Source: Keratinibaculum paraultunense
GTDB lineage: Bacteria; Bacillota; Clostridia; Tissierellales; Tepidimicrobiaceae
Assembly: GCF_016767175.1 (NCBI RefSeq)
Contig: NZ_CP068564.1
Span: 1,550,001-1,614,000 of the forward strand
Length of the DNA stretch: 64,000 bases
Reading direction: 5' to 3'
Below are positions 1,964 to 56,771 of this stretch, piece after piece; position 1 is the first letter of the stretch; each line of letters opens with the position of its first letter. A model generated the notes under the pieces. The model saw nothing but the letters and a program-made list of their open reading frames with translations, did not search any database and was not told the origin of the DNA. A program made the translations under genes and the position numbers.

Positions 1964-2235
1964 AGATTATCCCCCCTACACCAATACTCCAAAAAAAACA
2001 CTACATTACATTACCTTAAGGATTTGTTATGTTATTATAGGAATAAAATCATCTCTTTTTGCACCTATATTATATCATTAAATATAATTGATTATATAAT
2101 GAAATCTATTATTTCATCTATTAATTGAAACATACTAATCTAAAACCTTTACACACCCAGTCATAGCTTGTCTCCAATCAGCCTTCGCCAACACTAGTCT
2201 CCTTGGGCAGACCTGGCATTAGTGATACCATTTGT

Positions 2236-2280
2236 CTATTTCGATACCTCGTTCCTTATAAGCAAAGTAACCACCTCAAC
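2236..2280 (-). pseudogene. 3'-terminal fragment of rlmD
   Basis: The last 14 codons and stop of rlmD (VEVVTLLIRNEVSK) are repeated here without the rest of the gene. The codon just before the identical block is still His (CAT here, CAC in the intact gene), after which the sequences are unrelated. Conserved 3' gene ends of this kind are typical of attachment sites, but no recombinase gene is in the window. Confidence 0.8.
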
Positions 2281-5402: not shown

Positions 5403-5434
5403 AAAAGGGACATTGGTACTACCAATATCCCTTT
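5403..5434 (-). terminator. Terminator of the lanthipeptide operon
   Basis: AAAGGGACATTGG pairs with CCAATATCCCTTT around a short loop, one internal mismatch aside. On the minus strand it is followed by TTTTTAAATTT. It sits 25 bp after the stop of the last precursor gene. Confidence 0.8.
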
Positions 5435-5459
5435 AATATGGTGAGTACATTTTTTGCGA

Positions 5460-5642
5460 TTACTCACAAGCATTTGCTCTAGAGTTTTCGCAGCCTCGAG
5501 TCAATCCAGCTACTAAAGAAATTACAGTTAATAATGTAATTACAGAAACACCTTGTGCCTCAACAGGTGTATTTTGACTTGCTTCCATTTCATCTAAAGA
5601 ATAATCTTCAAATGTAGGTCCTACAAGATTATAATTCTTCAT
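5460..5642 (-). CDS. Class II lanthipeptide precursor 1
   Basis: A 60-residue peptide with the form of a LanM substrate. An acidic leader (about residues 1-31, containing FEDYSLDEMEASQ) is followed by a hydrophobic Ser/Thr-rich stretch and a C-terminal part with two cysteines, Cys51 and Cys59. Likely rings are Thr48-Cys51 (TRGC) and Ser54-Cys59 (SRANAC). Four upstream Ser/Thr residues around VSVITLLTVIS have no Cys partner. The leader lacks a double-glycine site, in keeping with an exporter that has no C39 peptidase. The start has a GGGGGG binding site. The leader motif F-E-x-x-x-x-(D/E)-E-M-x-x-S-Q is shared with the neighbouring precursor. Ring positions are inferred. Confidence 0.82.
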   Translation of the reverse strand: MKNYNLVGPTFEDYSLDEMEASQNTPVEAQGVSVITLLTVISLVAGLTRGCENSRANACE

Positions 5643-5753
5643 TCTTTTCCCCCCTAACTATTTGTTTATTAATTTAATTTATATTTAATAAGTCTAAAGA
5701 ATTGGTTTAAATTATATTATTAAATATTCTAAACTTATGAATTTTTAATAGGT

Positions 5754-5933
5754 TTATGGACAATTAAAGTTTCTACTCCACCATCTGGATATATAATATG
5801 ATGCTTCATATGCTGTAAGTATAGATAATACTGTTACTGCTGTGGCAACACTCTCTGGCTCATATTCAACCTGCTGAGAAGATGCCATCTCTTCAAATTC
5901 TAATTCTTCAAAAGTAACACCAATATTATTCAT
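5754..5933 (-). CDS. Class II lanthipeptide precursor 2 (short ORF)
   Basis: A 59-residue peptide read by hand between precursor 1 and the reductase gene. It starts MNNIGVTFEELEFEEM and has GGGGGG six bases before its ATG. The leader shares the EEMxSSQ pattern with precursor 1. The core is rich in unpaired Ser/Thr (SVATAVTVLSILT), then aromatic (SYYISRWW), and ends with Ser53-Arg-Asn-Phe-Asn-Cys58-Pro. Only one Cys is present, so only one thioether ring is possible. The SRxxxC spacing equals that of the last ring of precursor 1. The remaining Ser/Thr are candidates for dehydration and reduction. It is probably the partner peptide of a two-component product. Confidence 0.8.
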   Translation of the reverse strand: MNNIGVTFEELEFEEMASSQQVEYEPESVATAVTVLSILTAYEASYYISRWWSRNFNCP

Positions 5934-5979
5934 TATCTTCCCCCCTTCTTTTATTATTTACATAGAAATTCCCAATTCT

Positions 5980-6681
5980 TTAGACTTTATTAAGCGTATA
6001 TGTTAAGAAGGAATCGAATGTATAAAAATCTAGTAACCCATTTTTAAGCCAATAATTATATTCATATCCTTGTCTATGTTTAGATAATTGGTTATACATT
6101 GAAGAATATAATCCATTTTGAAAAACATTACCTCTTAATGATTTTGGATTTTTATATGCTTTATCTACTTTTTCTGCTAATTGCATGATATTACGATTTA
6201 TATCTTCTTCAAGCATTAAATCGTTTATTACTAAGGAATCTATACAAATACATCCAAAGGCAGATACAACTTTTTTTAAATAGCTAGTTACATATTCTTC
6301 GCCTGAAGTTGATGTACTTGTACATACTACAGCAAGTTTTCCTGTAAGAGGAAATAGATGTGACCAATGTGCTAATCTATCTATAAAGACTTTGGTCGAA
6401 CCAGATATTTGATGTATATAAACTGGAGAACCTATTATTAATAAGTCGCACTTTTTTATTTTTTCCTTAATCATTTTCATGTCATCCTTATTATCTTGAG
6501 GACAAATACCAGTAGCAAAACAAGAATTACATCCCATACATGGAAGAATATTTAAGGATTCTGCTGTAAAAACATCAACATTGTTACCCCTACTGGGAAG
6601 GGAATCAATTAGTTGTTTAGTATATTTAAGTGTGGTTGAGTTCTTTCCTTGCATACTGCCAATAAAACAAAAAATATTCAT
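5980..6681 (-). CDS. Flavodoxin-fold NAD(P)H:FMN reductase, candidate dehydroamino-acid reductase (LanJ-like)
   Basis: A 233-residue flavodoxin-like oxidoreductase. The N-terminal IFCFIGSMQGKNSTT is the FMN-phosphate loop, and CMGCNSC...C (Cys48, 51, 54, 60) is the cysteine cluster common in iron-sulfur flavoprotein/FMN reductases. IGSPVYIHQISGSTKVFIDR is the second flavin-binding block. It sits between lanM and the two precursor genes in the same direction. In some lanthipeptide clusters dedicated reductases turn dehydroalanine and dehydrobutyrine into D-Ala and D-aminobutyrate, and one group of these is flavin-dependent. Context and the Ser/Thr-rich, Cys-poor cores suggest that role here. 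Family membership in the known LanJ groups was not tested. A general quinone or nitro-reductase is the alternative. Confidence 0.8.
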   Translation of the reverse strand: MNIFCFIGSMQGKNSTTLKYTKQLIDSLPSRGNNVDVFTAESLNILPCMGCNSCFATGICPQDNKDDMKMIKEKIKKCDLLIIGSPVYIHQISGSTKVFIDRLAHWSHLFPLTGKLAVVCTSTSTSGEEYVTSYLKKVVSAFGCICIDSLVINDLMLEEDINRNIMQLAEKVDKAYKNPKSLRGNVFQNGLYSSMYNQLSKHRQGYEYNYWLKNGLLDFYTFDSFLTYTLNKV

Positions 6682-6719
6682 TTTATATCACCCTACATTA
6701 TTTTTTATAGTATTAAATT

Positions 6720-6735
6720 AGGTGTTTTCACACCT
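6720..6735 (-). other. Small hairpin between lanM and the reductase gene
   Basis: On the minus strand AGGTGT-GAAA-ACACCT forms a six-pair stem with a GAAA tetraloop in the 101-bp gap. No T-run follows, so it is more likely an RNA stability or processing element than a terminator. It could let the precursor and reductase part of the message be more abundant than lanM. Confidence 0.4.
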
Positions 6736-6782
6736 TATTGGACACATAATACATGTGCTTAAATCTTTGAATAAGCTGCTAG

Positions 6783-9700
6783 TTAATCTAAAGTTAATAC
6801 ACTAGGTATTTCTTCTGGAAATATTGATCTTAGTAGAGAGTAACCAACTCCTGATAATCCCATAAATAACCCTACATCTCTGAAATCATCTAATTCTTGT
6901 AATCTTGCCTGTCCATGTTCTAAAAAATAATTAGCAATTTGACTAGATGTTGAGTTTATATAGTCTGTAAACCTATCTTGAGGACTTAATAAACTACATG
7001 TTATTAAAAAATCTAGATTTCCTGATAAACCATGACATAAAGACATATTCTGGTTAGAATCATTTATAGCCTGTCTTAAAGCAAGTTCTTTAAAATGTAC
7101 CAATCTATCATCATTAAGATATTTCAAACATGCTACAGCTCCAATTCCAAGTCCAGTTGTTCCATGACACCAAGAAGTATGGTTTTTGCTATGGATATAA
7201 TCATTTTTGTAATAATTTAAATCTTTAATTTGATTTAATGTATGATCTAGTATTTTCTCAATATCTTTCTCGCAATTTATTCCATATTTATTTTGAGCAA
7301 TTAACATAGCATATAATATCCCAATTCCACCATGTCCCATTCCTATACTTGATTCTTTTTCTAAAAACATGTCTAAATTTGATTTAATTGTGGTAATTAT
7401 TTTGGCTATTTCTTCATAGAGTAAGGATTTACTAGTTAAAATATTTTGATTATTATCTAATAGTTTAACTAAACTAGCTCCTCCTCCTAACCAATCAATA
7501 CCAGTATATGTGTTATTTTTTGAATATTTTGAATTTTTGGAATACCTAGAATATAGTTTTTTAAAATAAGTAGGATCATCTATATTACATTTCAAAAGTA
7601 CATATGCCTCACCTAAACTACCTGAAAATACACCATGGTGATGATAAATTCCATAATCTTTTGTGGTATTTTTAACTTTTTCTGTAAATTCTATAATATT
7701 TCTATCGGTTGTATATTTAGATAAATAGTTTAAAAAAAGTAAAATTCCAGCTCTACCTGAATATAAACCATTTTCAATGGAGGTAATTTTATAAAAACCA
7801 TCAGTTGTATCTATATATGGCCATGAAACATACTTTCCACTTTTGCTATAGTAACATAAATCCATGATTTTATATGCAATTTTGTTACATGTATCCAAAA
7901 TCTTTTCCTTATTTAAATAATCCTCTTGGTATGATATTTCTGGCATCTTCTTATCTCTTTCATCAATCAACTCATAGTAATTTCCTAATAATATTCTCAA
8001 CTTTAATTTTTCCTTATTTACTTCCTTCATATTTAATTTTTTAAGTCTACTTATGGTTATTTCTAAACCACTTTTAGGAAAATAATCTTCTATATACTCA
8101 TAGTTGCTTGTAATAATATGATTTTTAGAAGTATTGCAAAAGAAAATTGGGATATCCATATTGAGCATATCATTAACTTCATAAGGAACTATACGTCTAT
8201 CTTTATAAGGATTAGCCCAGTTATTTTCAAATAGCTTTTCTAAATGTTTGCTATCTGATAGGTAGTGCGGATGATCTGCAAATGTCAATAAATCTCCATA
8301 AACTGCTGTCGATTTCGTTAATTGCCTTACTAGCAAGTTTTGAAATGTATTTTCTATTAACTCAATAATTTCTTTTCTATTCCGATAAACAAAATTTAGT
8401 GCATCATCAAATCCTTGAATAATATCATTTTTATAGTTGTGATATGTTATAGTTTTGTTTTTAAATTTTGGCAAATTTTCATTCGCTTTAATAACAGCGT
8501 CATATTTATACTCAAAACGCATTTCATCAGTATAGACATTTATTGGCACTAATACTTTAGTAGGGTAGATTTCTTCCTGTCCCCCTCCTAGTCCACTGAC
8601 ATCAACACCTTTACCTTCTACATTATTATCAAAACCTTTCGTTGGTAAGATACCTATCGCAAATAATCTTAGTATATGATCGTTAATTACCTCTAAGTTT
8701 GCATTATCCTCTAAATCGTATTCATATTGCGATAATAATGTTTCACAGTCAATAATATATGGATATTCTCCCGATGCTATGATGTTCTCGCTATGCATGT
8801 CTGTTGCGCCAACTATTCCCAATAATACGATTAATTCACCAATTCTATAATAATAGTTGTTTAATTGATTTTTATTAGTACATTCTTTATGAGTAATTAC
8901 TTCTTCTACTGTAAATTTTTCTGCATAATATACATTATTAGTACGAAGATCCATCAATCCACTATTTTCGTTAAAGTAATTTATTAATGAACTGAATGCT
9001 TTTTGAATATATAAATTTCTTGGTTTATAGATTAATTCCTTAGAATTTGAAAATATTAATTTTGAAACACTTCTCCCCCTCTGGTGAGTATCTCCTTTAG
9101 ATGTTTCAAAACCTATTATCTTATTATCAGATAGACCAAAATAATTACTTATCTTATGATAGTCCCCATCAATAAACTTAAACATTTCCATCGTTGAGTT
9201 GATAAAATCTTGACTTCGATTAATTAATAATCGGAGCAACACTGGATACTTTAGATAGAATGATTTTATTTTATCAATTGATGAGTATTTTCTCTTGATA
9301 AAGTCTAAATACCTTTCATGCCCATCATTTCCTTTAAGTTCATTATGTTGTTTAAATTGGTGAAGCTCTATAATCAGACATTTCCAAGTCATACGACTAA
9401 GTATGCTTTTACAATCAGCAATATATTCTTCTATTGTTTTAGCTGATACGCTAATATTTTTTAATTCTTTAACTTGAGTAAAAATCTCCTGTTTGATGTA
9501 TTCTGAAAAAGGGATAACTAATTGATCTTTATCAATATTATTTAGATTGACATTACATGTATCAAATATCATATTGAAAAGCTGAAACCAATTTTGTTGT
9601 TCTAGATAATTATATAAAATACTATTTTCATACTCAGTAAAATTTTTAAGTGCAAATGCAAAGTTTTCTTTTTTAATATTCCGAATTTTTAAACTTTCAT

Positions 9701-9851
9701 TAAAAGATTCTTCATTAACTAAACTTCTTATATTTAGCCAATCATAAATTAATTGGATATCATCAAAAATATATTCACTTTCTACATTGAAGGCATTTAT
9801 TCTTTCTTCGATTGTTAATGCTTTAGTTAGTGAAGGGTATGTTTGTTGCAT
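6783..9851 (-). CDS. lanM: Class II lanthipeptide synthetase LanM
   Basis: Bifunctional enzyme of 1022 residues, normal for LanM. It phosphorylates and eliminates Ser/Thr in the core peptide, then adds Cys to form (methyl)lanthionine rings. The N-terminal dehydratase half has the KPRNLYIQKAF lysine motif at about 275, the kinase-like loop GATDMHSENII at about 350 and the following IIDCETLL. The C-terminal LanC-like cyclase has GHGGIGILYA at about 838 and the zinc ligands in SWCHGTTG (about 895) and SLCHGLSG (about 938). All catalytic motifs looked for are present. The start is backed by a GGGGGG ribosome binding site. It lies downstream of the LspA-like gene and upstream of the reductase and both precursors. 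One synthetase for two differing precursors is known from two-component systems. Confidence 0.96.
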   Translation of the reverse strand: MQQTYPSLTKALTIEERINAFNVESEYIFDDIQLIYDWLNIRSLVNEESFNESLKIRNIKKENFAFALKNFTEYENSILYNYLEQQNWFQLFNMIFDTCNVNLNNIDKDQLVIPFSEYIKQEIFTQVKELKNISVSAKTIEEYIADCKSILSRMTWKCLIIELHQFKQHNELKGNDGHERYLDFIKRKYSSIDKIKSFYLKYPVLLRLLINRSQDFINSTMEMFKFIDGDYHKISNYFGLSDNKIIGFETSKGDTHQRGRSVSKLIFSNSKELIYKPRNLYIQKAFSSLINYFNENSGLMDLRTNNVYYAEKFTVEEVITHKECTNKNQLNNYYYRIGELIVLLGIVGATDMHSENIIASGEYPYIIDCETLLSQYEYDLEDNANLEVINDHILRLFAIGILPTKGFDNNVEGKGVDVSGLGGGQEEIYPTKVLVPINVYTDEMRFEYKYDAVIKANENLPKFKNKTITYHNYKNDIIQGFDDALNFVYRNRKEIIELIENTFQNLLVRQLTKSTAVYGDLLTFADHPHYLSDSKHLEKLFENNWANPYKDRRIVPYEVNDMLNMDIPIFFCNTSKNHIITSNYEYIEDYFPKSGLEITISRLKKLNMKEVNKEKLKLRILLGNYYELIDERDKKMPEISYQEDYLNKEKILDTCNKIAYKIMDLCYYSKSGKYVSWPYIDTTDGFYKITSIENGLYSGRAGILLFLNYLSKYTTDRNIIEFTEKVKNTTKDYGIYHHHGVFSGSLGEAYVLLKCNIDDPTYFKKLYSRYSKNSKYSKNNTYTGIDWLGGGASLVKLLDNNQNILTSKSLLYEEIAKIITTIKSNLDMFLEKESSIGMGHGGIGILYAMLIAQNKYGINCEKDIEKILDHTLNQIKDLNYYKNDYIHSKNHTSWCHGTTGLGIGAVACLKYLNDDRLVHFKELALRQAINDSNQNMSLCHGLSGNLDFLITCSLLSPQDRFTDYINSTSSQIANYFLEHGQARLQELDDFRDVGLFMGLSGVGYSLLRSIFPEEIPSVLTLD

Positions 9852-9893
9852 ATTTCGCCCCCCTATATATTAATGACATGTTAGGTTTTAGTA

Positions 9894-10553
9894 TTAATTA
9901 TTGTATTTTTTAATTACAAATAAGTCATTTTTAATGCCGTACATTAATAATGTTCCAATTCCTAATTGTGCATATATATCTTTTATATCAATAGCTTGTA
10001 AACCCTTAAACACTATAAAATCCAATGTATAACCCCAGAGAGCACTATCCATTATGGAACATATAACCATGGCATATGTTAAGATTTTTGTTAAATTTAA
10101 ATAACTATCTTTTTGATATTTTTCTTCACAATATCGGTAGAAAATTAATAGAACTATTAATACCATGAGCCTAGCAATAGTTGTAATCCAACCAGGTAAT
10201 GTTAATCCAAGAATATTGAACAACGCACTTATCTGTTCATTTTTAACTATCTTTAGCATAAATAAGTTTCCAGGAAGAGTAATTACTTTGTTACCTAGAA
10301 ATCTATAGATGATTAATTTTGCAATTTGATCTATTCCAACAAGTACTCCAATTGTTACTGCCATAAACTTATTAGAGAAATCATGCTTTTTTAAATAAGA
10401 TGTTATAAAATATCCTAAAAAAATATATATTAATATAGGTATAAACAGTGTAATATAATGTCTAAGTTCGTAAGCTTGACCAATTACAATTTTTCTTATC
10501 ATGTTTAAAATAGGCATGATGGCAAATGCAATTAAGTAAATATATTTGTTCAA
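9894..10553 (-). CDS. LspA-like (signal peptidase II family) membrane protein
   Basis: A 219-residue polytopic membrane protein with about six helices. It carries signal peptidase II signatures in order: GIDQIAKLII (residues 73-82), a KNEQISALFN block (104-113) standing for the usual N-x-G-A-A-F, MDSALWGYTLDF (168-179) and IDIKDIY (189-194). Asp169 and Asp192 align by eye with the two catalytic aspartates. It is longer than ordinary LspA (about 160 residues) by an N-terminal membrane portion, and the middle motifs are relaxed. It lies 42 bp before lanM. Possible roles are self-protection, if the product targets LspA or lipoprotein processing, or processing of a cluster peptide. The signatures point to the family but not to activity. 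Confidence 0.7.
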   Translation of the reverse strand: MNKYIYLIAFAIMPILNMIRKIVIGQAYELRHYITLFIPILIYIFLGYFITSYLKKHDFSNKFMAVTIGVLVGIDQIAKLIIYRFLGNKVITLPGNLFMLKIVKNEQISALFNILGLTLPGWITTIARLMVLIVLLIFYRYCEEKYQKDSYLNLTKILTYAMVICSIMDSALWGYTLDFIVFKGLQAIDIKDIYAQLGIGTLLMYGIKNDLFVIKKYNN

Positions 10554-10824
10554 ATCATTCTCCTCCTCTTTAAATCAAGTAGTATTTTCCAATACCCCTA
10601 ATTAATTTTATATTATTTTAATGGATCATTTGCAACGAAATACGGATTGACCCCTTAATTTTGGACAAAAACTCACTAATACTTCCAATATCATAATATT
10701 TCATTTTGCCCTTGGTTTATTGTACATTAATATTTATCTTCATCAAGGGTAAAGGCTACGCCCCTCAAAGCAGGCCCTTGATTTCAGCTAAATATTAATG
10801 TGTTAGGCACTTGAAGGCAAAGTA

Positions 10825-11652
10825 TTAAAGCTTTATTTTCAAAGGTTTTGCTGTTCCTTCCAATGTTTTATGGTAAAATTCTACTGGTGAAATATATCCT
10901 AAAGAACTATGGATTCTAACTTTATTGTAGAATTTAATATATTCAGATACTGCTTCATAAGCTTCTGTATAGCTTTTAAATTCGTACCTTGACAAACATT
11001 CATCTTCTAACAATCTATGAAAAGCTTCTATATGGGCATTTTTATTTGGAGTCTTAAATGGTATCCTTTCATGCTCTAATTTTAATTCTTTACAAGTATC
11101 TTGAAATTTATTGCTGATAAATTGTGGGCCATTATCTGACCTTATAATCAAGTTAATTTTCTTATTATAAAGTTCCCGCTTCATTAATCCCCTTTTAAGG
11201 GTTACGATTATGTCTTCAGTTTTACAAGATAATCCCATATGATATTCTACTATATTTCTATCATATACATCTAAAAAAGAAGCTATATAGAAGAATCTAT
11301 CTTCACCATGAATATAACCATATTTAACATCTACTTCCCAAAGGGAATTTGATGTTGTTATTTCTCTATTTATAGCTATTTTTCTAGGAAATTTAGGTTT
11401 AATTTTCCTTTGAGGCCTTAAGACCTCAAGCTCTTTACATAATCTATATACTTTTTTCTTATTTATAATTAAATTAAATTTCCTTCTTAACAATACAGTT
11501 ATTTTGCAGTAACCGTAGTACAATCCTTCTGTTTCAATGATTTTTAATATATATTCCTTTATTTGTTCATCACAAATATGATTGCCATCTTTATCAAAAG
11601 AGTAACCAGGAATTGGTCTACCGCCTTTATTTATTTTTGTATCTTCATTCAT
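10825..11652 (-). CDS. IS3-family transposase OrfB
   Basis: DDE transposase catalytic part (rve integrase core) of 275 residues from the first ATG. Visible are WEVDVKYGYI, RSDNGPQF and the HIEAFHRLLEDE region carrying the third acidic residue, then an RIHSSLGYISPVEF tail. The same frame stays open upstream without an ATG to the A8 run at 11795-11802, where it overlaps orfA. It is therefore almost certainly made as an OrfAB fusion by -1 frameshifting, as in other IS3 elements. Confidence 0.92.
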   Translation of the reverse strand: MNEDTKINKGGRPIPGYSFDKDGNHICDEQIKEYILKIIETEGLYYGYCKITVLLRRKFNLIINKKKVYRLCKELEVLRPQRKIKPKFPRKIAINREITTSNSLWEVDVKYGYIHGEDRFFYIASFLDVYDRNIVEYHMGLSCKTEDIIVTLKRGLMKRELYNKKINLIIRSDNGPQFISNKFQDTCKELKLEHERIPFKTPNKNAHIEAFHRLLEDECLSRYEFKSYTEAYEAVSEYIKFYNKVRIHSSLGYISPVEFYHKTLEGTAKPLKIKL

Positions 11653-11780
11653 ATCTTCAGTTTTAGTTCTTTTTTTAATATTGTAATAATAGGTAGACCT
11701 ACTTAATCCAAGAATTTTAAGGACAGTAACTGCAGTATATCCTAAATCAATCCATTTCTTCGCAATATTAACTTTATCTT

Positions 11781-12089
11781 CTATTGTGGGTTCGTTTTTT
11801 TTAAAAGGTCTTTAAGAATGGCAATTTCTAAATCTTTTTCGCCTAATAATTTTTTTAATTGCTCATTTTCTTCTTCTAGGGATTTAGCATTAATATTATT
11901 GGAATAATTATAATTTGGAATTAGTCCATTTTCTTTCTTTGACTCCCTAACCCAGCGGGTAACAGTTCCAGGGACTAAATCGTGTCTTCTGGCAACTAAT
12001 GTAGCATTACCAGTTTCCTCTACTTCCTTAATAATTTGACGTTTAAATTCTTCTGGATATCTTTTACCTTTACCTCTCAATTTAGACAA
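11781..12089 (-). CDS. IS3-family transposase OrfA (helix-turn-helix)
   Basis: A 102-residue DNA-binding subunit. The helix-turn-helix is in ATLVARRHDLVPGTVTRWVR, followed by a leucine-zipper-like segment (LEEENEQLKKLLGEKDLEI). Its last codons cross an eight-A run (11795-11802 on the plus strand as T8), the expected slippery site for making OrfAB. Confidence 0.9.
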   Translation of the reverse strand: MSKLRGKGKRYPEEFKRQIIKEVEETGNATLVARRHDLVPGTVTRWVRESKKENGLIPNYNYSNNINAKSLEEENEQLKKLLGEKDLEIAILKDLLKKTNPQ

Positions 12090-12177
12090 CCTCCCATTAA
12101 TTTTTATTTTACTAAATTAGTGTGCGATTGTCCAAATAGGTTAGGGGGCTTAATAGAGGTGTTATAAAGTATTAGTC

Positions 12178-13848
12178 CTATGAACTTGTTTTCAATAAAG
12201 AATTTGTCCTGTTATAATCAATATTTATTATTTCATCACATATTGTGAATAATCTTTCATCATGAGTTACAATAATAGTGATAGTGTCTAATTTATTTAA
12301 TTCCAATATGTTAATTAATTCATTGACACTATCTGAGTCTAGGGCTGATGAAGGTTCATCTAATATCAATAAACTTGGTCTTTTCAATAGAGCATGTAAT
12401 ATGGCAATTCTTTGATTTTCACCTCCCGATAATTCTGATATTTTTTTAAACCAAAACTTATCTAAATCAAAGTGATTATTATAAAATAATCCCATTAATC
12501 CCAATTCTTTAATTTGATTTTTAATTAACTTAATATTTTCTTTAGTGTTATCACTATAATTAAATAATGATAATACTGTATCCGACATAAGATTTGGAAA
12601 TTGTTGTACTACTGCAATGTTGCGTTTTCTAAGTTCATATAAATCAATTTCTTTTATATTAATATTGTTATATTTTACATTTCCACTTAAATTTTCACTT
12701 AGGAGCCCTATAATAATATCTATTAATGTTGATTTTCCAGATCCATTATGACCTCTAATTATATAAATTTTGTCTTTTTCAAACTTATAATTAAAGTCTT
12801 TTATAATATAAGGTTCCTTTTTATTCTTATAGGTATAGGAATAGTTAATATCATTTAATGATACTGAATTAATATTTTCTATAATTTTTGTTCCATTATG
12901 TTCTTTTTTCACACTATACAATTCATTTATTCTATTGAATGATACCTTAGTTTCTTGATAAGATTTTCCAAAGTTTAGATAATATTTTATGCATTCTATA
13001 ATCATTGAATAGTATGATAAGATAATTGTAAATTGACCTATAGTCATATGCCCATCTAATATAGACTTAGATCCCAAGACTAATATAACTGATTGTAATA
13101 ATAGCGTAATTATTCCATCTAAAGAATAAAAAAGATGGGCTACTCTATTTGCATTTATCGAATTTGTAAGTAATTTACTAAATGTAGAGTTTAATAGCTT
13201 AGAACTTTGATTAAAGCTACCATTTGTTTTAATATCTTTTATATATATATACTGTTCTGATAAACTTGTAAAAAATTTATTTTGACTCTCTTTTAATATT
13301 AAATTCCATTTATATAGAGGACTTTTTAAATAATTATAAAGAATAAGAAAGAAAGGTATACTAACTAAACTACAAATAAATATTTTAAAATTGATAGTAA
13401 ATAACATATAAAAAGAAAACAATATCGTGCCAAGGTTTGTAAAAAATCTCAGATAGTTATCTAAAAAAAAAGTAATTAGGCTATTTGAATCATTATAAAT
13501 CCTTTGGCTAAGGTAAACAGGCTTATAATCTGAAAAAAACAATATAAATACTCTCTTTAAATGCTCAGTTACATCATAAATTATTTGATAAGTAAACTTC
13601 AGTTTTAGCTTTGCCATTTGCATGTTTAAAACATAAGATAGTACCATGTTTAGTAATGTAAGAAGTATAATAGTATAAATAATTCGTAGAACAATATTCA
13701 TAGATTTAAGTTTAGTCAGATTATCTATCAATTCAGCATTTAGATAAGGAAATAATAGTCCATAAACCCATACAAAAATAGATATTATAGTAATTAAAAT
13801 AAACTTATATTTTTCCTTTCTGATAGTATTTACAATCAGTTTTCTCAT
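12178..13848 (-). CDS. ABC exporter of the lanthipeptide cluster (LanT-like, no peptidase domain)
   Basis: A 556-residue half-transporter. About six membrane helices occupy residues 15-300. The ATPase domain has Walker A GHNGSGKST at about 365, signature LSGGENQRIAI at about 471 and Walker B LLILDEPSSALD at about 490. It begins directly with the membrane domain, so it lacks the C39 leader peptidase found in many class II LanT proteins. The precursor leaders accordingly lack double-glycine sites. The leader protease must be elsewhere. It follows the propeptide gene by 68 bp and is separated from the biosynthetic genes by the IS3 element. Export of the lanthipeptide is the likeliest job; self-resistance is the alternative. 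Confidence 0.85.
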   Translation of the reverse strand: MRKLIVNTIRKEKYKFILITIISIFVWVYGLLFPYLNAELIDNLTKLKSMNIVLRIIYTIILLTLLNMVLSYVLNMQMAKLKLKFTYQIIYDVTEHLKRVFILFFSDYKPVYLSQRIYNDSNSLITFFLDNYLRFFTNLGTILFSFYMLFTINFKIFICSLVSIPFFLILYNYLKSPLYKWNLILKESQNKFFTSLSEQYIYIKDIKTNGSFNQSSKLLNSTFSKLLTNSINANRVAHLFYSLDGIITLLLQSVILVLGSKSILDGHMTIGQFTIILSYYSMIIECIKYYLNFGKSYQETKVSFNRINELYSVKKEHNGTKIIENINSVSLNDINYSYTYKNKKEPYIIKDFNYKFEKDKIYIIRGHNGSGKSTLIDIIIGLLSENLSGNVKYNNINIKEIDLYELRKRNIAVVQQFPNLMSDTVLSLFNYSDNTKENIKLIKNQIKELGLMGLFYNNHFDLDKFWFKKISELSGGENQRIAILHALLKRPSLLILDEPSSALDSDSVNELINILELNKLDTITIIVTHDERLFTICDEIINIDYNRTNSLLKTSS

Positions 13849-13916
13849 ATGATCTCCCTATTTATTATTCAGTAATATTTTTGTACTCTGTTACCATACT
13901 TACTTAGTTACCTATA

Positions 13917-14069
13917 TTAATTAATGCTTATATTTTTATATATATCTTCGTAGCTATGTGCATCTATCAAATCATCTTTTCCTGCTACTATTAAATCTGA
14001 AGTTCTAATTGATTGGTTAAAAACTAATAAGGATAATATTAAAATTAAAGCAGATAATCTTTTTTTCAT
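13917..14069 (-). CDS. Small secreted propeptide, candidate quorum-sensing pheromone precursor
   Basis: A 50-residue ORF read by hand. It starts MKKRLSALILILSLLVFNQS, a typical signal peptide, and continues with a polar acidic tail ending HSYEDIYKNISIN. The ATG has GGGAGAGAAGG just upstream. Size and design match PapR/Phr/SHP-type propeptides, which are exported, trimmed to a few C-terminal or internal residues and re-imported to bind an RRNPP regulator. It is transcribed divergently from just such a regulator gene (14190-15119) and is the first gene ahead of the exporter. No Cys is present, so it is not a lanthipeptide substrate. The active peptide cannot be read from sequence alone. Confidence 0.7.
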   Translation of the reverse strand: MKKRLSALILILSLLVFNQSIRTSDLIVAGKDDLIDAHSYEDIYKNISIN

Positions 14070-14133
14070 AGGCCTTCTCTCCCTTATTTAAATTTTTTCG
14101 AATTATCTAACTATTTATATGATATAATATGAT

Positions 14134-14139
14134 TGTCAA
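14134..14139 (-). promoter_or_regulatory. Candidate -35 box of the lanthipeptide operon
   Basis: On the minus strand TTGACA lies about 65 bp before the propeptide ATG. Downstream -10 candidates (TAAATA at spacing 16, TATAAA at 14) are imperfect, as expected of an activator-dependent promoter. The inverted repeat at 14142-14170 abuts its upstream side. Confidence 0.45.
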
Positions 14140-14141
14140 AT

Positions 14142-14170
14142 TTTCAACCCTATTCAAATCGGGGTTGAAA
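14142..14170. promoter_or_regulatory. Inverted repeat, probable regulator-binding site
   Basis: TTTCAACCC and GGGTTGAAA form perfect 9-bp arms separated by 11 bp, in the divergent promoter region. The repeat lies directly upstream of the minus-strand TTGACA, the position of an activator site, and between the TATAAT at 14123-14128 and the regulator start on the plus strand. No second copy was noticed in the window. Confidence 0.6.
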
Positions 14171-14189
14171 TTAGAAAGGATGTGCTGAT

Positions 14190-15119
14190 GTGTATAATCT
14201 TGACTTATTTGGAAAAGAAGTTCGCAAGATTAGAAGACAGCGAGGATATACACAAAAGTATGTCTGTAGCGCTTCTAATATTAGTATTGATACCATTAGA
14301 AAGATTGAGAATGGAAAAGTTACTCCTAATCAAATTACTCTAGAATTATTATCTCCTGTTCTAAAAGTAGACCTCAATGAATTACTTTTAAAGTATAGGT
14401 TTAAAAACTATGGTGATTTTATAAAAATAAAAAGCAAAATAGAAACACATCTAGAAAATGGTGAGTTTGAACAATTAGAATTTGATTTAAAAGTTGCAAA
14501 AAAATTACTACATCAAGAAAAATATAATGCTTATGTTAAAAACTTACTAAGACAATATTGTCTATTAATTAAATCTATCATAGTAAAAACAGAAATCAAA
14601 AATTATAGTAAAGCTTTAGACTTACTTATTAGAGCTTTAAAAATAACAACTCCCAATTTTGATTTATCAAATTATGATGACTTTGTATATAGTAATTTAG
14701 AGATTAGAATCTTAATGAATATAGCTATCCTTTTCAATAAACTTAGAACAGTAAATGAAGGAATTGAAATATTAAAATTTTGTTTGTCTATTATAGATTC
14801 TGATGATGTTAAACTTAAAATTAAGATATTATATAATTTAGCATATAATTATTATAGACTTGATCTTCATAAGGAATGTTTACATTATTGTAATGTCGGT
14901 ATAAGTACTTGTGTAAAAAACAATGTTCTTACTTGCTTATCCTTATTATATGCCCGTAAATCTATTTCTGAGTACTATCTTAACCATGACACATATAAAG
15001 ACTCTATTTCTAAAACTATCATACTATTTGATATATACAAACAAGAAAAATTAAAACACATATTCTTACAATCTTGTAGAGACATACATAATATTGATAT
15101 TAGTGAATGGATGATGTAA
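14190..15119 (+). CDS. HTH-TPR regulator of RRNPP (PlcR/Rgg) type
   Basis: A 309-residue cytoplasmic regulator. Residues 6-60 are an XRE-type helix-turn-helix (VRKIRRQRGYTQKYVC, then TIRKIENGKVTP). The rest is helical with TPR-like pairs, for example YNLAYNYYRLDLHKECLHYC and the region around residues 140-270. The architecture is that of peptide-pheromone receptors. The start is GTG at 14190 with AGAAAGGA nine bases upstream; a nearby ATG is out of frame. It diverges from the 50-residue propeptide and the exporter, with the inverted repeat between them. It probably activates the lanthipeptide operon when the pheromone binds. Repression is also possible. Confidence 0.82.
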   Translation: MYNLDLFGKEVRKIRRQRGYTQKYVCSASNISIDTIRKIENGKVTPNQITLELLSPVLKVDLNELLLKYRFKNYGDFIKIKSKIETHLENGEFEQLEFDLKVAKKLLHQEKYNAYVKNLLRQYCLLIKSIIVKTEIKNYSKALDLLIRALKITTPNFDLSNYDDFVYSNLEIRILMNIAILFNKLRTVNEGIEILKFCLSIIDSDDVKLKIKILYNLAYNYYRLDLHKECLHYCNVGISTCVKNNVLTCLSLLYARKSISEYYLNHDTYKDSISKTIILFDIYKQEKLKHIFLQSCRDIHNIDISEWMM

Positions 15120-18142: not shown

Positions 18143-19397
18143 TTAATTCAAATAATAATCCAAACAGCTTAGAAGTCCTCGTCTTGCGAGGATTTCTTTG
18201 CTTATGTGATGTAGTCCTGTGGTTTTTGCAACTGCTTGATAGTGGTCTCCAAATCCTATTGATTGTTTGGCCATCCACATTGGGGCTCCTAGTTTTCGAA
18301 GTCCCCACAGGCGTTTTTCACTTGTCTTCCACTGCTTCCATATGACTATTCTCATTCTTGTTCTAAGTCGTTCATCTATCTTTCTTAGGACTGTTTTCAT
18401 ATTTCCTAGTCTAAAATAGTTTATCCACCCTCTAATTACTTGGTTCAGTCTGTTGATTCGATATGTCATTGATACTGACCAACTTCTCTTTGTCAACTGT
18501 TTCAACTTTCTTTGGAATCTTTTAACTGAATCTTGGTGCGGTCTTGCTTTCCATTCTCCTTTAGCTTTCCAAAACCCATATCCTAAATATTTTAGTTTTG
18601 TTGGTTTTGTAACTTTGGATTTTGTTGCATTTACTTTTAGTCCTAGTTTCTTTTCTATCCACTTTGTTACTGATGCCATTACTCTATTGGCTGCTGCACT
18701 ACTTCCTACTACGATTATACAGTCGTCTGCATACCTTACAAAGTTTAATCCCCTTGCTTCTAGTTCTTTGTCTAATTCGTTTAGTATTATGTTACTTAGA
18801 AGCGGTGATAGGTTTCCTCCTTGTGGGGTTCCCTTGGTTGTTTCCTCATATTCTCCTTTTACCATTACTCCTGCATTAAGATATTTCCTAATTAGGGATT
18901 CTGTGCCTGGGTCATTTATGAGGTTATGAACCAGGGTCATGAGTTTGTCTTGTGGTACGTTATCGAAGAATTTCTCTAGGTCGATGTCTACAATGTAGGT
19001 ATATCCGTCATTAAAATACTCGAGCAATTTCACTATCGCTTGTTGTGCTCTGCGGTTTGGTCTAAAACCGTAGCTGTTATCATTAAAAGTATGGTTCTGC
19101 TATCGGTGTTAGTACTTGTGCTATTGCCTGTTCTATGACTCTGTCTACTATTGTTGGTATTCCAAGATTGCGTACTCCTCCATTTGGTTTTGGTATTTCT
19201 ACCCTTCTGACTGGTTTTGGTTTGTACTTTCTTCTTCGAATTTTGTCTCTAATTTCTACCCAGTTGTCTTTGAGGTATTGGTCTATTTCTTCGGTTGATA
19301 TTCCATCTATTCCTCCTGCTCCTTTGTTTGCTTTTACTTTGTTTAGTGCTGCAAACATATTATCTCTACTGAGTATTTGTTCTAGCAATTCTGACAT
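18143..19397 (-). pseudogene. ltrA: Group II intron reverse transcriptase/maturase, frameshifted
   Basis: The N-terminal 104 codons (19397-19083) stop at EPYF, and the remainder (from 19033) is in another frame. Removing one T from the TTTT near 19083 restores a continuous protein of about 418 residues reading EPYFNDNSYGFRPNRRAQQA across the join. RT motifs include VDIDLEKFFDNV, GTPQGGNLSPLLSN and the catalytic FVRYADD. A maturase domain follows (YRINRLNQVIRGWINYF). No HNH endonuclease domain is present, typical of terminator-targeting introns. The intron is probably immobile unless a functional copy acts in trans. Confidence 0.88.
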
Positions 19398-19908
19398 TGG
19401 ATTGTCTCCTTTCTTTGTTATGCTCTGTATCCTCTTAATCCTAACTCCTATGAAAATTTCTCGCTGTTACGTCTTTGATACTATTTTCTCGTCGGATATG
19501 GATACATACTTTTGCAAGTCCATTTGACTTTGAATTATTCAGCCCTTCGTTCCACCTCTATTACTGAGGTTTCATCACTACTATGGCTTTTGCTGACTTC
19601 TCACTATTCGTTGTTACTACTATCTCGCTAGTGAGACCTCACGGGATAAGCCATCAATCTTTCCTTGTCTACCTGCCTAATTTACTTTCATGGGTTACGA
19701 TTGCCTTTTGGACTTCACGACTTTCAGCCCGCTTATCCACCATGTAAGCCTTGGTATTAGGTTTCTGTTCGTCAGGCTACAATTTTGCTATCCCTTCTTC
19801 TCGTCTGTATCTCACGATACAAACCTTGGGAGTTGCTATGAGGTTCGCTGGCAACTGCGCCCTACGTGGACTTTCACCACAGACTTATAACATGCCCGTC
19901 ATACTAAA

Positions 19909-21497: not shown

Positions 21498-21692
21498 CTA
21501 GCAACATGCTAGAAAACTTGTAGGACATGCTCTTGATATAGTGTATATGAAAATATCATCTTCAGAAATTGATTCAATTATCTTCTGCTCTGACATATCC
21601 ATTATTTTGTTAATGCTATCTATTAGATTTTCTTTTGAAATCTCTTTAAGTTTTTTTCTTGAATTTTTTTCAAGGCTATACACTCCATCCAA
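21498..21692 (-). CDS. Putative Cys-tailed modified-peptide precursor
   Basis: A peptide of up to 64 residues. A charged helical leader-like part (ENLIDSINKIMDMSEQKI, then IESISEDD) precedes a short tail reading IFIYTISRACPTSFLACC. Three Cys and four Ser/Thr in the last 14 residues resemble a lanthipeptide or other RiPP core. The start is uncertain: TTG at 21692 or GTG at 21683, neither with a good binding site, so coupling to the upstream gene (27 bp away) is possible. No modification enzyme lies beside it; LanM is 12 kb away and its own precursors have a different leader. It could be an orphan substrate or a fragment. Confidence 0.5.
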   Translation of the reverse strand: MDGVYSLEKNSRKKLKEISKENLIDSINKIMDMSEQKIIESISEDDIFIYTISRACPTSFLACC

Positions 21693-29238: not shown

Positions 29239-29297
29239 AGCATAAACAAATATAACTATGTTAAATTGATAATACAGAGTTTTCTATTCTCCCTTTT

Positions 29298-30170
29298 TTA
29301 ACCTTGAAGTTGTTCTGGATTATAATATAGATAAAGGTCCTCAAGATTAGGCTCTTCTAAATGAGCATCCTCTGCTGGAGAAGTTTCTGAAAACACTCTA
29401 ACTTTAGTTTTATTGCCATTTCTGTAATAACGAATAACAGGGAAGTTTCCAGTATTTGCCAATAATTCTATATCATCAACGGGGAATTCCCATACCTTTC
29501 CAATTAATTGATTAAGTAATGTTTCTTCATCACTTTTGCATATTATTTTACCAGACTTCATTATAATGATATCATCTGCAATATCTTGGATATCTGATGT
29601 AATATGGGTTGATAGAATGATAATTCGATCCTTAGAAATATGGGAAAGATAATTTTTAAAAACTAGTCGCTGCTTAGGATCTAAACCTGCTGTTGGTTCA
29701 TCCAATATTAATATACGAGGTTCATTAAGCATTGCTTGAATTAGTCCTAAGCGCTGTTTCATACCACCAGAATAGGTCTTTATCTTCTTATTTTTCATAT
29801 CAAACAGTTGAAATAACTCAAATAATTCATTAGCCCGTTTTTTAATAATACCTTTTGGAAGGCCTTTTACTGTACCTATAAAGTCTACATATTCCATACC
29901 TGTAAATTCTGGATAATAACCAAAATTTTGTGGTAGATAGCCTAGTAGTTCTAAATATTCTTCTCCAAGTTTTTTAGTATTTTGGCCATTAAGCATTATC
30001 TCACCACTAGTAGGTTCTAATATTCCGCATATCATTTTCATTAATGTTGTTTTACCAGCGCCATTTGCTCCTAAAAGCCCATGTATCCCATATCCAATTT
30101 TTAACGAAACATCATTAACTGCCTTTTTCCCAGCAAATACTTTGTTAACATTAATAAGAGTTAATTCCAT
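29298..30170 (-). CDS. ABC transporter ATP-binding protein
   Basis: A 290-residue ATPase of the CcmA/bacitracin-type family that pairs with ABC-2 permeases. Walker A is GANGAGKTTLM (about 34-44), the signature is YSGGMKQRLGL (about 135) and Walker B is ILILDEPTAGLDP (about 155). A C-terminal extension of about 75 residues is present. It is 60 bp downstream of the permease gene and probably forms one transporter with it, for efflux of or resistance to an antimicrobial peptide, sensed by the adjacent kinase. Confidence 0.9.
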   Translation of the reverse strand: MELTLINVNKVFAGKKAVNDVSLKIGYGIHGLLGANGAGKTTLMKMICGILEPTSGEIMLNGQNTKKLGEEYLELLGYLPQNFGYYPEFTGMEYVDFIGTVKGLPKGIIKKRANELFELFQLFDMKNKKIKTYSGGMKQRLGLIQAMLNEPRILILDEPTAGLDPKQRLVFKNYLSHISKDRIIILSTHITSDIQDIADDIIIMKSGKIICKSDEETLLNQLIGKVWEFPVDDIELLANTGNFPVIRYYRNGNKTKVRVFSETSPAEDAHLEEPNLEDLYLYYNPEQLQG

Positions 30171-30229
30171 TTACACCTTCTCCTTCCTCTACAAATTCCA
30201 TATATAAACCAATCATAAATAAATCATCT

Positions 30230-31468
30230 TTATTCTACTTGATGTTTCTTAAAAAATATCATTGAAAGGGGTAATAAGATTAAAATAAGTAATATATAAA
30301 CAGCTATAGCCATATGATAAAATGTCAAAACTTTCCCAAAGAAGGAATATGTGACTAATCCATAGTACTGACGGCCGCTTAAAAAAGCAGGTAAAAGCCT
30401 TGTTATTTTTTGAAATATCCTATTTCCTCTTTCCACTGGAATAAATAACCCACCTAAATAAAATAAGATTACAATTACCGCAACAGGCGTTGTCTTCTTA
30501 ATTTTGGAAGATAAACTTAAAGCTATTGTTGCAACAGCTAAAGCACTTAAAAAGCTCATAAATATCCTGATTCCTATAGTTTTTAATAATGTCCAATTAT
30601 ACAATATTTTCGCATCTAATACCTGTATAGGCAGATTCCATCCTTCAGTGCCAAAAAACAGTAATATGGGAACTACGCATAGTAAAAGCCCCACTAGAAC
30701 AACAACAATCGCAAATATCAAAGAGGCAGTAATTTTTCCTGTTACTAATTTCGTCCTCCCGTATTTTGCAGACAATAAAATGGCATCCATTCCTGTTTCA
30801 TGTTCCTCAGAAAAAACACCGCTAATGCCAATTCCTATAGCTAGAACTAAAAATACAACTATGTCTAAAGAATCATTGATATAATTCCAACCTTGATAAT
30901 AACCATACTGATAGGGTCCTTTTGTTATATTAGCTCTTTGTTGCCAAAATTCCCTCTCAGTACTTGTTAGATTCATTGAATCAAACCATGTTTCGATGTT
31001 TTTTTGTCTGTGTACATAAAAGTCGCCCAGTTCATCAAACTCTATCATCAATATATGAGGGTATGGACCGGATATGAAATTTTGTGAAAGCCAATAAAAA
31101 TAAGACTCTCTAGGTTTGTAATATCCATAATATATGTCTTTAGGTAATGCTTTATCATATTCAAATCCAGTTTTATTATTTTCTACTATGTAATGTTCTT
31201 TTAAATTTTCTATATTGGCCCGAATCCTTTCATCTGTTTGTACTTGGTTTAAATATTCCTTGTAAAATTCCTTTTCATAATTTACCGCCTGTTTTCTTTT
31301 AAGTAAATTGCCATTATCATCATAAAAAGTATATTTAAAGATATTTGGAACAAAAGAGTAGATTAAAATTAGGTAACTTATAATAAGGGCACCTATAGTC
31401 AATTTAGAACTTAGTATCTTTTTTAGTTCAAATTTAATAATACGAGCTATTATTTTCATATTTGCCAT
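30230..31468 (-). CDS. ABC-2 type permease
   Basis: A 412-residue membrane protein. One helix near residues 20-40 is followed by an external loop of about 150 residues, then five to six helices from about 205 on, including GIGISGVFSEEHETGMDAIL, the typical ABC-2 permease segment. The ATG has GGGGG upstream. The gene follows the kinase gene after a hairpin and precedes its ATPase. The large external loop resembles permeases for membrane-active peptides. A partial second copy starts at the left window edge. Confidence 0.88.
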   Translation of the reverse strand: MANMKIIARIIKFELKKILSSKLTIGALIISYLILIYSFVPNIFKYTFYDDNGNLLKRKQAVNYEKEFYKEYLNQVQTDERIRANIENLKEHYIVENNKTGFEYDKALPKDIYYGYYKPRESYFYWLSQNFISGPYPHILMIEFDELGDFYVHRQKNIETWFDSMNLTSTEREFWQQRANITKGPYQYGYYQGWNYINDSLDIVVFLVLAIGIGISGVFSEEHETGMDAILLSAKYGRTKLVTGKITASLIFAIVVVLVGLLLCVVPILLFFGTEGWNLPIQVLDAKILYNWTLLKTIGIRIFMSFLSALAVATIALSLSSKIKKTTPVAVIVILFYLGGLFIPVERGNRIFQKITRLLPAFLSGRQYYGLVTYSFFGKVLTFYHMAIAVYILLILILLPLSMIFFKKHQVE

Positions 31469-31492
31469 TTAAATCCCCCTTGTTAATATAAT

Positions 31493-31536
31493 AAAAGCCT
31501 ATTATCAAGTATAAGTATACTTAATAATAGGCTTTT
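31493..31536 (-). terminator. Hairpin between kinase and permease genes (copy 2)
   Basis: Same sequence as at 75-118: a long stem AAAAGCCTATTAT with ATAATAGGCTTTT, with T-runs on each side. It may limit transporter expression from the regulator promoter. Confidence 0.75.
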
Positions 31537-31580
31537 AAACTTGAAGAAAATATCAATAAAAAATAAATATTTCTTTATAT

Positions 31581-32705
31581 TTAATTATTTGTCATTTTAA
31601 GTGGAAAGTCCATAATGATTTTCAAAGTTGAACTAGTCAATTCCGAACTAATTCTACCCTTATGTTTTTCCATAATCTCTTTTGATATAGCCAATCCTAA
31701 ACCAGAACCCTCAATAGATTTATTTCTAGACTTATCTATCCTGTAAAAAGGTTGAAACAGCTTAGAAGCTTGTTCATCAGTCATACCATAGACATCATTT
31801 TCAATAATAACAGATTGATATTCCGAATTTGAAATGGTGTAAATTCTTATTTTCCCACCTGGTTTTGTATATTGTATAGCATTTTTTATAATATTGTAAA
31901 ATGCTCTAGCAATCAAATCTTGATCTACAAGAAATATAATAGACTCTTCTATATCAATCTCAAATTTAAGGTTTTTTTGGGTGATTTTAGGATAAAAAGT
32001 TTCTCTCATCTGTATTAGCAAATTTAATAAATCTATTTTTTTTAAGTTCAAATGAGAAATTTGAAGTTGAAATTTGGTCAAATCAAAAAATTGATTGATG
32101 AGATTCTCTAGTTCTTTGGATTTTTCTTGAATAATCTTCAAATATTTCTTTCTATTTTCTTCTGATATATTTGGTTCATCTAATAGCAAGGATACATATC
32201 CAAATATTGAGGTTAATGGCGTCTTCAAATCATGTGCTAAAAATGCCATAGATTGATTATGTTGTATAACTTGGTCTTGGTTTTGTTTTATAAGCTCGTT
32301 TCTTTCTTCGATTAATGCTTTAATTTCTTTATCTATGCCTAGATATTCCAGCTTATTTTCTGGCACAAGGTTATTTTTTAACATTTGAATTCTTTCATGG
32401 ATTTCTAACGCTACCGCATTTTTAACTTCTAAAACTTTTCTCATAATGAAAACTTCTGAAATAATAAATGCTATAATATATACTGCATAGATTAGTAGTA
32501 TTGAAGTCTGCCTAATACTACTCCAATCCAATTTCCCCTCAATATAAGTTTTACCATAAACCTTTACTTCTCTTATGTCAAACATAAAATTGTTTGTAAA
32601 AATGTGTAGGAAGTTACTTCCAATAATCATATATATAAGAATCAATATGAGAGTTAATATAATTAAACCTTTAAGAAAACTTTTAGTCGTTTTTTTCAAT
32701 AACAT
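31581..32705 (-). CDS. Sensor histidine kinase, VanS-like (copy 2)
   Basis: About 374 residues, nearly identical to the kinase at 163-1287. Differences seen are Thr for Ala in FFDLTKFQ, shortly after the phosphoacceptor helix, and Ile for Val in YNIIKNA of the N box. Both are mild. All catalytic motifs are kept. The start at 32705 follows GGGGGGAGGG and overlaps the regulator gene by 23 bp. This copy is directly linked to the permease and ATPase genes it probably serves. Confidence 0.9.
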   Translation of the reverse strand: MLLKKTTKSFLKGLIILTLILILIYMIIGSNFLHIFTNNFMFDIREVKVYGKTYIEGKLDWSSIRQTSILLIYAVYIIAFIISEVFIMRKVLEVKNAVALEIHERIQMLKNNLVPENKLEYLGIDKEIKALIEERNELIKQNQDQVIQHNQSMAFLAHDLKTPLTSIFGYVSLLLDEPNISEENRKKYLKIIQEKSKELENLINQFFDLTKFQLQISHLNLKKIDLLNLLIQMRETFYPKITQKNLKFEIDIEESIIFLVDQDLIARAFYNIIKNAIQYTKPGGKIRIYTISNSEYQSVIIENDVYGMTDEQASKLFQPFYRIDKSRNKSIEGSGLGLAISKEIMEKHKGRISSELTSSTLKIIMDFPLKMTNN

Positions 32706-33381: not shown

Positions 33382-33653
33382 AGATTATCCCCCCTACACC
33401 AATACTCCAAAAAAAACACTACATTACATTACCTTAAGGATTTGTTATGTTATTATAGGAATAAAATCATCTCTTTTTGCACCTATATTATATCATTAAA
33501 TATAATTGATTATATAATGAAATCTATTATTTCATCTATTAATTGAAACATACTAATCTAAAACCTTTACACACCCAGTCATAGCTTGTCTCCAATCAGC
33601 CTTCGCCAACACTAGTCTCCTTGGGCAGACCTGGCATTAGTGATACCATTTGT

Positions 33654-56702: not shown

Positions 56703-56735
56703 TATATACTCCCTCCTCAATCAATAATATTTATA

Positions 56736-56761
56736 GGAGCTGCCAATTAATTAGCAGCTCC
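56736..56761 (-). terminator. Attenuator hairpin after the peptide gene
   Basis: GGAGCTGC and GCAGCTCC form a perfect 8-bp stem over a 10-base loop between the precursor stop and the maturase start. No long T-run follows, so partial readthrough is likely, giving more precursor than enzyme message. Confidence 0.6.
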
Positions 56762-56771
56762 TGCTCTTGCG

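Follow-up and report, generated by a model that had tools for sequence, protein, structure and literature searches.

A peptide-pheromone-type switch beside a LanJB-type two-component lanthipeptide locus in Keratinibaculum paraultunense, with an LspA-like gene that is probably a passenger

Class II lanthipeptide loci under the control of RRNPP-type receptors are known from Streptococcus pneumoniae, with TprA/PhrA and TprA2/PhrA2-lcpAMT as examples (PMC5436883, citing Hoover et al, 2015). Carnolysin and bicereucin are characterised two-component lantibiotics of the LanJB type (PMC5808125; PMC11519912), a type whose loci encode a flavin-dependent enzyme from the NAD(P)H-FMN reductase family (PMC7268733; PMC7794033). 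Here, we compare these systems with positions 5403-15119 of a 64,000-nucleotide stretch of Keratinibaculum paraultunense DNA (the window; bases 1550001-1614000 of the complete 2.31-Mb chromosome), a block that carries both an RRNPP-type receptor-propeptide pair and a LanJB-type set of lan genes; unless stated otherwise, coordinates are window positions. The initial annotation had suggested that such a combination was undescribed. This is incorrect for the central part: class II lanthipeptides controlled by RRNPP systems have been published with TprA/PhrA and TprA2/PhrA2 (PMC5436883), so that the combination is not new, and LanJB-type two-component lanthipeptides are likewise already known. A list published in 2023 contains 196 gene clusters adjoining RRNPP systems, one of them in Tissierellaceae (PMC10075063). 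In the literature compared, which included the main text of that paper, we did not find described the pheromone and operator family of the window, or an arrangement that processes its precursors with neither an exporter peptidase nor a Gly-Gly site.

All ORFs (open reading frames) named in the initial annotation are present, namely LanM, two precursors, a reductase, an LspA-like protein, an exporter, a propeptide and an HTH-TPR regulator (Table 1). The gene content of the proposed 10-kb block therefore stands, but its contiguity does not, since an overlooked IS3-type insertion sequence (IS) of 1.5 kb interrupts it. In transcript-wise order, the minus strand carries the propeptide, the exporter, the IS3-type element, the LspA-like gene, LanM, the reductase, LanA2, LanA1 and a terminator, and the regulator gene diverges from the propeptide and exporter on the plus strand. 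This layout resembles TprA/PhrA systems, where an RRNPP receptor gene is likewise divergent from a small propeptide gene that is followed by ATP-binding cassette (ABC) transporter genes, beside class II lan genes. The pneumococcal lan genes are controlled by their RRNPP receptor (PMC5436883); in the window, such control is probable for the time before the insertion and possible for the present. The pheromones also differ: PhrA peptides end in the heptapeptides VDLGLAD or LDVGKAD (PMC5436883), and the window propeptide carries a [DE]D.I[DE].HSY core instead. Furthermore, lcpAMT comprises a single LcpA precursor, an LcpT with a C39 domain and no reductase, and the window differs in each of these respects.

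Genes, motifs and a recurring gene set identify the lan genes as a two-component class II locus of the LanJB type, which supports the proposed LanJ-type assignment. LanM consists of a dehydratase (DUF4135) and a LanC-like cyclase domain with zinc-ligand motifs; the dehydratase and zinc-site motifs claimed for it were found. The reductase, correctly described as flavodoxin-type, carries an iron-sulfur-flavoprotein CxxCxxCx5C motif, which also occurs in its homologues from Paraclostridium sordellii and genomes G438, G439 and G179, but not in the copy on an S. aureus plasmid. Both precursors combine a class II leader with a Ser/Thr/Cys-bearing core, with leader matches below the curated cut-offs (LanA1 against TIGR03893, 21 bits); LanA2, having a single Cys, can form at most one ring. 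In P. sordellii, S. aureus, G438 and G439, too, LanM is combined with a LanJB-type reductase and two precursors, and precursors with lichenicidin-A2-like leaders accompany LanM and the reductase in related loci. Carnolysin and bicereucin share the set of LanM, two precursors and a flavin-dependent reductase, bicereucin being compared here by description. The product, predicted to contain D-amino acids, is probably an antimicrobial two-part modified peptide, made by a host from a little-studied clostridial group.

The P. sordellii plasmid (NZ_CP080292.1) and the G438 and G439 loci have the gene set of the window, with an identity of 28-32% for LanM and 33-39% for the reductase. In P. sordellii, an Agr-type peptide gene takes the place of the RRNPP pair: an apparently fused AgrB-AgrD-like ORF (L022 8202-8927, NZ_CP080292.1) lies directly before LanM, two identical precursors and the flavodoxin reductase. 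L022 is a lanthipeptide cluster with a different type of quorum sensing.

C39-containing exporters that cut at Gly-Gly, Gly-Ala or Gly-Ser sites are frequent in class II lanthipeptide systems, yet not universal. The window exporter, in agreement with the initial annotation, has no C39 domain. Both precursors have lost the Gly-Ser, Gly-Gly or Gly-Thr site with which the EM..SQ stretch of relatives continues (SQNTP and SQQVE in the window versus SQGGANP, DQGSAG and TQGTGD in relatives). The two absences appear to match each other, and no LanP or C39 domain was seen within the block. The window differs in this, and in its control by an RRNPP pair, from carnolysin and bicereucin, and it also differs from the P. 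sordellii, G438 and G439 loci, which have a C39-containing LanT and GS/GG leaders. Because its precursors lack a Gly-Gly or Gly-Ser site and its exporter lacks C39, another protease must remove the leaders.

The regulator combines an N-terminal HTH with a C-terminal TPR fold like that of PlcR, Rgg and ComR. PlcR is matched along its entire length (4e-7) by a profile of 10 regulators, which also matches ComR. For an AlphaFold model (mean predicted local distance difference test score 92.5), the top PDB match is PlcR in complex with PapR and DNA, followed by ComR and Rgg2. These matches bear out the proposed RRNPP-type HTH-TPR protein. PlcR/PapR of the Bacillus cereus group is the best structural and profile match, but the identity to PlcR is 18-19%, the pheromone differs and the operator (TTTCAACCC..GGGTTGAAA) is specific to the family of the window regulator. 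Members of this family that are 39-50% identical occur in the taxonomic family and order of the host as well as in Thermoanaerobacter and Caldanaerobacter.

The short secreted propeptide proposed next to the regulator is real, and the pairing of the two recurs in relatives clearly above chance, supporting a genuine RRNPP-type pair. Cognate propeptides adjoin the regulators in Caldanaerobacter, Thermoanaerobacter, Tissierella, [Clostridium] ultunense and metagenome-assembled genomes (MAGs). These signal-like peptides of 47-56 residues share a C-terminal core resembling [DE]D.I[DE].HSY (EDDSIEWYSY, KDDAIEWNNY, EDDGMIDWHSY and EEDAIELHSY); the window propeptide has KDDLIDAHSY, within a C-terminal region that includes DDLIDAHSYEDIYKNISIN and ends in ..HSYEDIYKNISIN. 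Among short signal-like ORFs, 10 of 136 located at most 500 bp from a regulator carry the motif, compared with 1 of 1164 beyond 1 kb (Fisher p 1e-9, a value inflated by four of the ten coming from closely related thermophiles). The single distant match (L052) lies 2.8 kb from a regulator and is likewise one of the related propeptides. A second regulator/propeptide pair, adjoined by a subtilase, is present in the same genome at about 1698-1700.8 kb (L046 15654-16750 and 14066-15376); its propeptide core, DDDTIEWYSY, lies at about position 1700580 of the genome, and cross-talk with the window switch is possible.

A conserved palindrome of the TTTCAACCCGATTTGAATCGGG type occurs 15-31 nt upstream of the regulator start in the window and in 12 other loci, with 20-24 of 28 matching positions in the latter and 23 of 28 in the window, a match equalled by none of 300 shuffles. 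The window palindrome is likely the operator of the HTH-TPR regulator. Since it sits between two divergent start regions, one bound protein could act on both promoters. A pattern search of the window and the whole genome found no further operator, leaving this as the only copy. Divergent, weaker palindromes at L045, L046, L049, L052, L053, L055, L124 and L125 did not beat shuffled sequences and were rejected.

In-silico removal of 9869-12156 brings the exporter stop to within about 38 bp of the lanM ATG; the lanM ribosome-binding site (TAGGGGGG) lies in the native part and is kept, and the other gaps from the propeptide to lanA1 are then at most about 111 bp. Only one strong terminator was found, after lanA1, and none between the propeptide and lanA1. 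Given the short junction left by the removal, the propeptide, exporter, lanM, lanJB, lanA2 and lanA1 genes probably once formed a single operon under the switch, later split by the insertion; similarly, phrA2-ABC and lcpAMT are both under TprA2 in pneumococcus (PMC5436883). We therefore favour, with moderate confidence, an RRNPP switch divergent from a propeptide-exporter operon that ran through the lan genes before the insertion. The propeptide would be secreted and cut back to its C-terminal part, a short pheromone that includes the [DE]D.I[DE].HSY core and that would be re-imported and bound by the TPR domain of the receptor. Binding would alter receptor action on the one palindrome that lies between the promoters, thereby switching the operon with cell density. 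LanM would then dehydrate and cyclise the two precursors, the reductase would convert some dehydro-residues to D-amino acids, the ABC protein would export the modified peptides, and a further protease would cut the leaders. The IS3-type element and the LspA-like cassette would have landed between the exporter and lanM at a later time. Pheromone motif, operator sequence and receptor model are directly testable.

With these insertions in place, transcription of the lan genes depends on read-through or on a promoter in the cassette, and they may now use either; a promoter-like sequence (TTGCAA-N17-TATAAA) and a ribosome-binding site precede the LspA-like gene. Such promoter calls are weak, because sites in a sigma-70 scan were no more frequent than in shuffles. 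As the IS3-type element and a cassette with its own promoter-like sequence intervene and only one operator-like site exists, density control of the lan genes at present is no more than possible, and their coupling to the switch today is the main uncertainty of our model.

Several observations weigh against this model. The two parts of the locus differ in GC content (22-24% for the exporter, propeptide and regulator versus 27-34% for the lan genes), which would fit separate origins; the family of the regulator is joined to LanM in no other sampled locus, so the pairing has been seen once; and no operator belongs to the lan genes themselves, which have the promoter-like sequence of the cassette. 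The combined insertion is flanked by no clean target duplication, and for the IS alone the only candidate is the 4-bp AATA. In addition, the exporter could serve the switch alone. The GC difference, the single operator, the intervening elements, and the promoter-like sequence and ribosome-binding site before the LspA-like gene, whose 5' region is similar to the one of a different chromosomal gene (87% over 60 bp), would suit two unrelated neighbouring acquisitions, with the switch controlling only the propeptide and exporter and the lan genes running from the cassette promoter. We regard such an origin as rather unlikely: the genes from the propeptide to lanA1 are co-directional and closely spaced once the insertion is removed, down to the short exporter-lanM gap with the lanM ribosome-binding site kept, the sole strong terminator lies behind lanA1, and a related exporter, in genome G440, is likewise found in a RiPP (ribosomally synthesised and post-translationally modified peptide) cluster with this kind of switch.

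The LspA-like gene, which made the locus striking, is the part least likely to belong to it. Its product is A8-type in fold and residues (PF01252, 42.9 bits, above the cut-off) and retains DQ..K, N105, D169 and the aligned catalytic Asp pair D178/D192. This pair is shared with LspA (PDB 6ryo and 5dir; A2 profile E 1.8e-23), but the window protein differs from LspA in an N-terminal extension, the loss of GNxxDR and a D-x-K-D signature. In place of the housekeeping motifs NxGAAF and GNxxDR it has NEQISALF and CSIMDS, and an ordinary LspA is encoded elsewhere, at genome positions 1160498-1160920. The protein belongs to a divergent paralogue group that is spread over Clostridia in unrelated settings, and it had no plasmid match.

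A cassette comprising the gene, its 5' region and 25 bp of 3' flank is 98.4% identical at the DNA level to a congener contig (G398:C4; L157), where it adjoins an IS of the same kind in an otherwise different context, whereas another 12-kb region common to both congener genomes is only about 81% identical. The cassette has thus spread recently, and in the simplest reading it was mobile and landed with or beside the IS3-type element, of which the genome holds further full and partial copies. LanM, the exporter, the propeptide and this regulator were not found in the congener genome, an absence that is strong but not absolute because this is a 98%-complete MAG in 230 contigs. Contamination of G398:C4 by the present species was rejected: its other DNA is absent here, and it shares pieces with other contigs of the MAG. 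The LspA-like gene as a recurrent lan component was rejected too, as no copy lies near LanM in 13 other LanM genomes of the order and relatives across the phylum sit in unrelated settings; in G452, G634 and G636, it and LanM are unlinked.

Accordingly, of the proposed LspA-like member, the A8-type gene stands but its membership does not, and a shared neighbourhood of LanM, an LspA-like gene and an HTH-TPR regulator has no counterpart at the other LanM loci sampled; what remains of the proposed density-controlled, two-peptide, D-amino-acid-containing system is a LanJB-type two-component locus with an RRNPP pair. The gene probably does not belong to the lan system. A functional role, in self-immunity or in leader removal as a replacement for the missing C39 domain, is favoured by its retained residues, its position 42 bp upstream of lanM and the lack of LanP or C39 in the block, and other membrane proteases do lie near LanM clusters (M50 in G438 and G439, Rce1/CPBP in P. 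sordellii). We nevertheless consider this role improbable in view of the nearly identical congener cassette beside an IS with no lan genes detected, the lack of linkage to LanM elsewhere and the promoter-like sequence of its own. The locus illustrates how two neighbours may come to resemble one system through an insertion element and a mobile passenger gene. As a separate observation, the M50 membrane metalloproteases are encoded at L098 11943-13010 and L099 2485-3471, adjacent or close to LanM in related clusters of the two-component kind.

A degenerate locus, in which the insertion has silenced the lan genes and decay has begun, would be in keeping with 2.3 kb inserted into the presumed operon, with the location in an island that abounds in mobile elements and lies between two 4.4-kb repeats of 99.7% identity, and with the loss of the usual processing site from the precursors. 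This, too, we judge quite unlikely, since the frames of LanM, the reductase, the exporter and the regulator are intact and free of stops, and the IS transposase, like the cassette, points in the direction of the operon, which makes read-through possible.

Table 1. Annotated features of the block (window positions)
Feature	Position	Strand	Remarks
Rho-independent terminator	5404..5434	-	14-pair stem, T-rich tail; closes the lan operon
LanA1 precursor, 60 aa, 2 Cys	5460..5642	-	mersacidin/lichenicidin-A2-type leader; no GG/GS processing site
LanA2 precursor, 59 aa, 1 Cys	5754..5933	-	leader type as LanA1; no GG/GS site
Reductase	5980..6681	-	PF03358, 1.9e-21; family role from PMC7268733, PMC7794033
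LanM class II lanthipeptide synthetase	6783..9851	-	TIGR03897, 631 bits; motifs at 253, 275, 348, 367, 893, 937
LspA-like cassette	9869..10642	-	ORF 9894-10553, own promoter-like sequence and ribosome-binding site; likely passenger
IS3-type element	~10643..12156	-	transposase ORFs 10825-11652, 11781-12089; oriented as the operon
ABC exporter (transmembrane and nucleotide-binding domains, TMD-NBD; 556 aa)	12178..13848	-	without C39 peptidase domain
Pheromone propeptide, 50 aa	13917..14069	-	hydrophobic N-terminus; C-terminal ..KDDLIDAHSYEDIYKNISIN
Palindrome 9-11-9, likely regulator operator	14142..14170		TTTCAACCC-N11-GGGTTGAAA, perfect
HTH-TPR regulator (RRNPP, PlcR-like)	14190..15119	+	divergent from propeptide/exporter

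The exporter, which we expect to carry the lanthipeptide, is 37.6% identical to the G440 exporter and only 22-27% identical to the LanT proteins of related lan clusters. The G440 exporter adjoins a propeptide and regulator of the same kind as the window pair, in line with a Clo7bot-like radical-SAM/SPASM maturase, a Cys-rich 65-residue peptide and an S41 protease, and a similar set occurs in L117. The window exporter may therefore have arrived with the switch, whose family accompanies more than one RiPP type. Tentatively, and as a possibility rather than our expectation, the HTH-TPR/'HSY' pairs of Tissierellales and Thermoanaerobacter may constitute an RRNPP subfamily not yet described, whose members use one operator and one recognisable pheromone code. 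Such a subfamily would control RiPP clusters of differing chemistry in repeated instances, often together with an exporter devoid of a peptidase; in the window the cluster is for a class II lanthipeptide, and in G440 and the DULG01000089 MAG for Cys-rich radical-SAM peptides. Radical-SAM genes were not shown to be generally enriched around the regulators within the stretches compared (9 of 41 regulator loci versus 7 of 30 comparison loci), and we therefore limit this statement to the neighbourhoods G440, L117, L120, L050, L051 and L055. Motif, operator and receptor model could serve to activate silent RiPP clusters of anaerobes in which laboratory work is difficult.

RiPP genes together with an HSY propeptide/regulator pair were also observed at L107 479-3433 with L049 15610-18442, and at L117 4034-10371; these sets comprise a radical-SAM maturase, a Cys-rich peptide of 63-65 residues, an S41 protease and a peptidase-less ABC exporter. 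The window itself contains a second RiPP-like set at 53798-56891 (minus strand) with a 39-residue Cys-rich peptide, a peptidase-less ABC exporter and a radical-SAM/SPASM protein near the Clo7bot/TIGR04463 maturases. At 21498-21692 (minus strand), a 64-residue ORF ends in TISRACPTSFLACC, which is similar to the end of a lacticin-481-like precursor (compare L100 14299-14451, ending in ..TITKKCPSSLFTCC), with no adjoining synthetase.

A group II intron with reverse-transcriptase ORFs, apparently split, lies at 18143-19821 (minus strand). The 4.4-kb direct repeats extend over -2136..2280, past the left edge of the window, and 29282-33698, bracketing the stretch rich in mobile elements that contains the lan block. 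Each encodes an ABC ATPase (LanF/DrrA-like), an ABC-2 permease, a histidine kinase and a response regulator, genes that possibly confer resistance to antimicrobial peptides.

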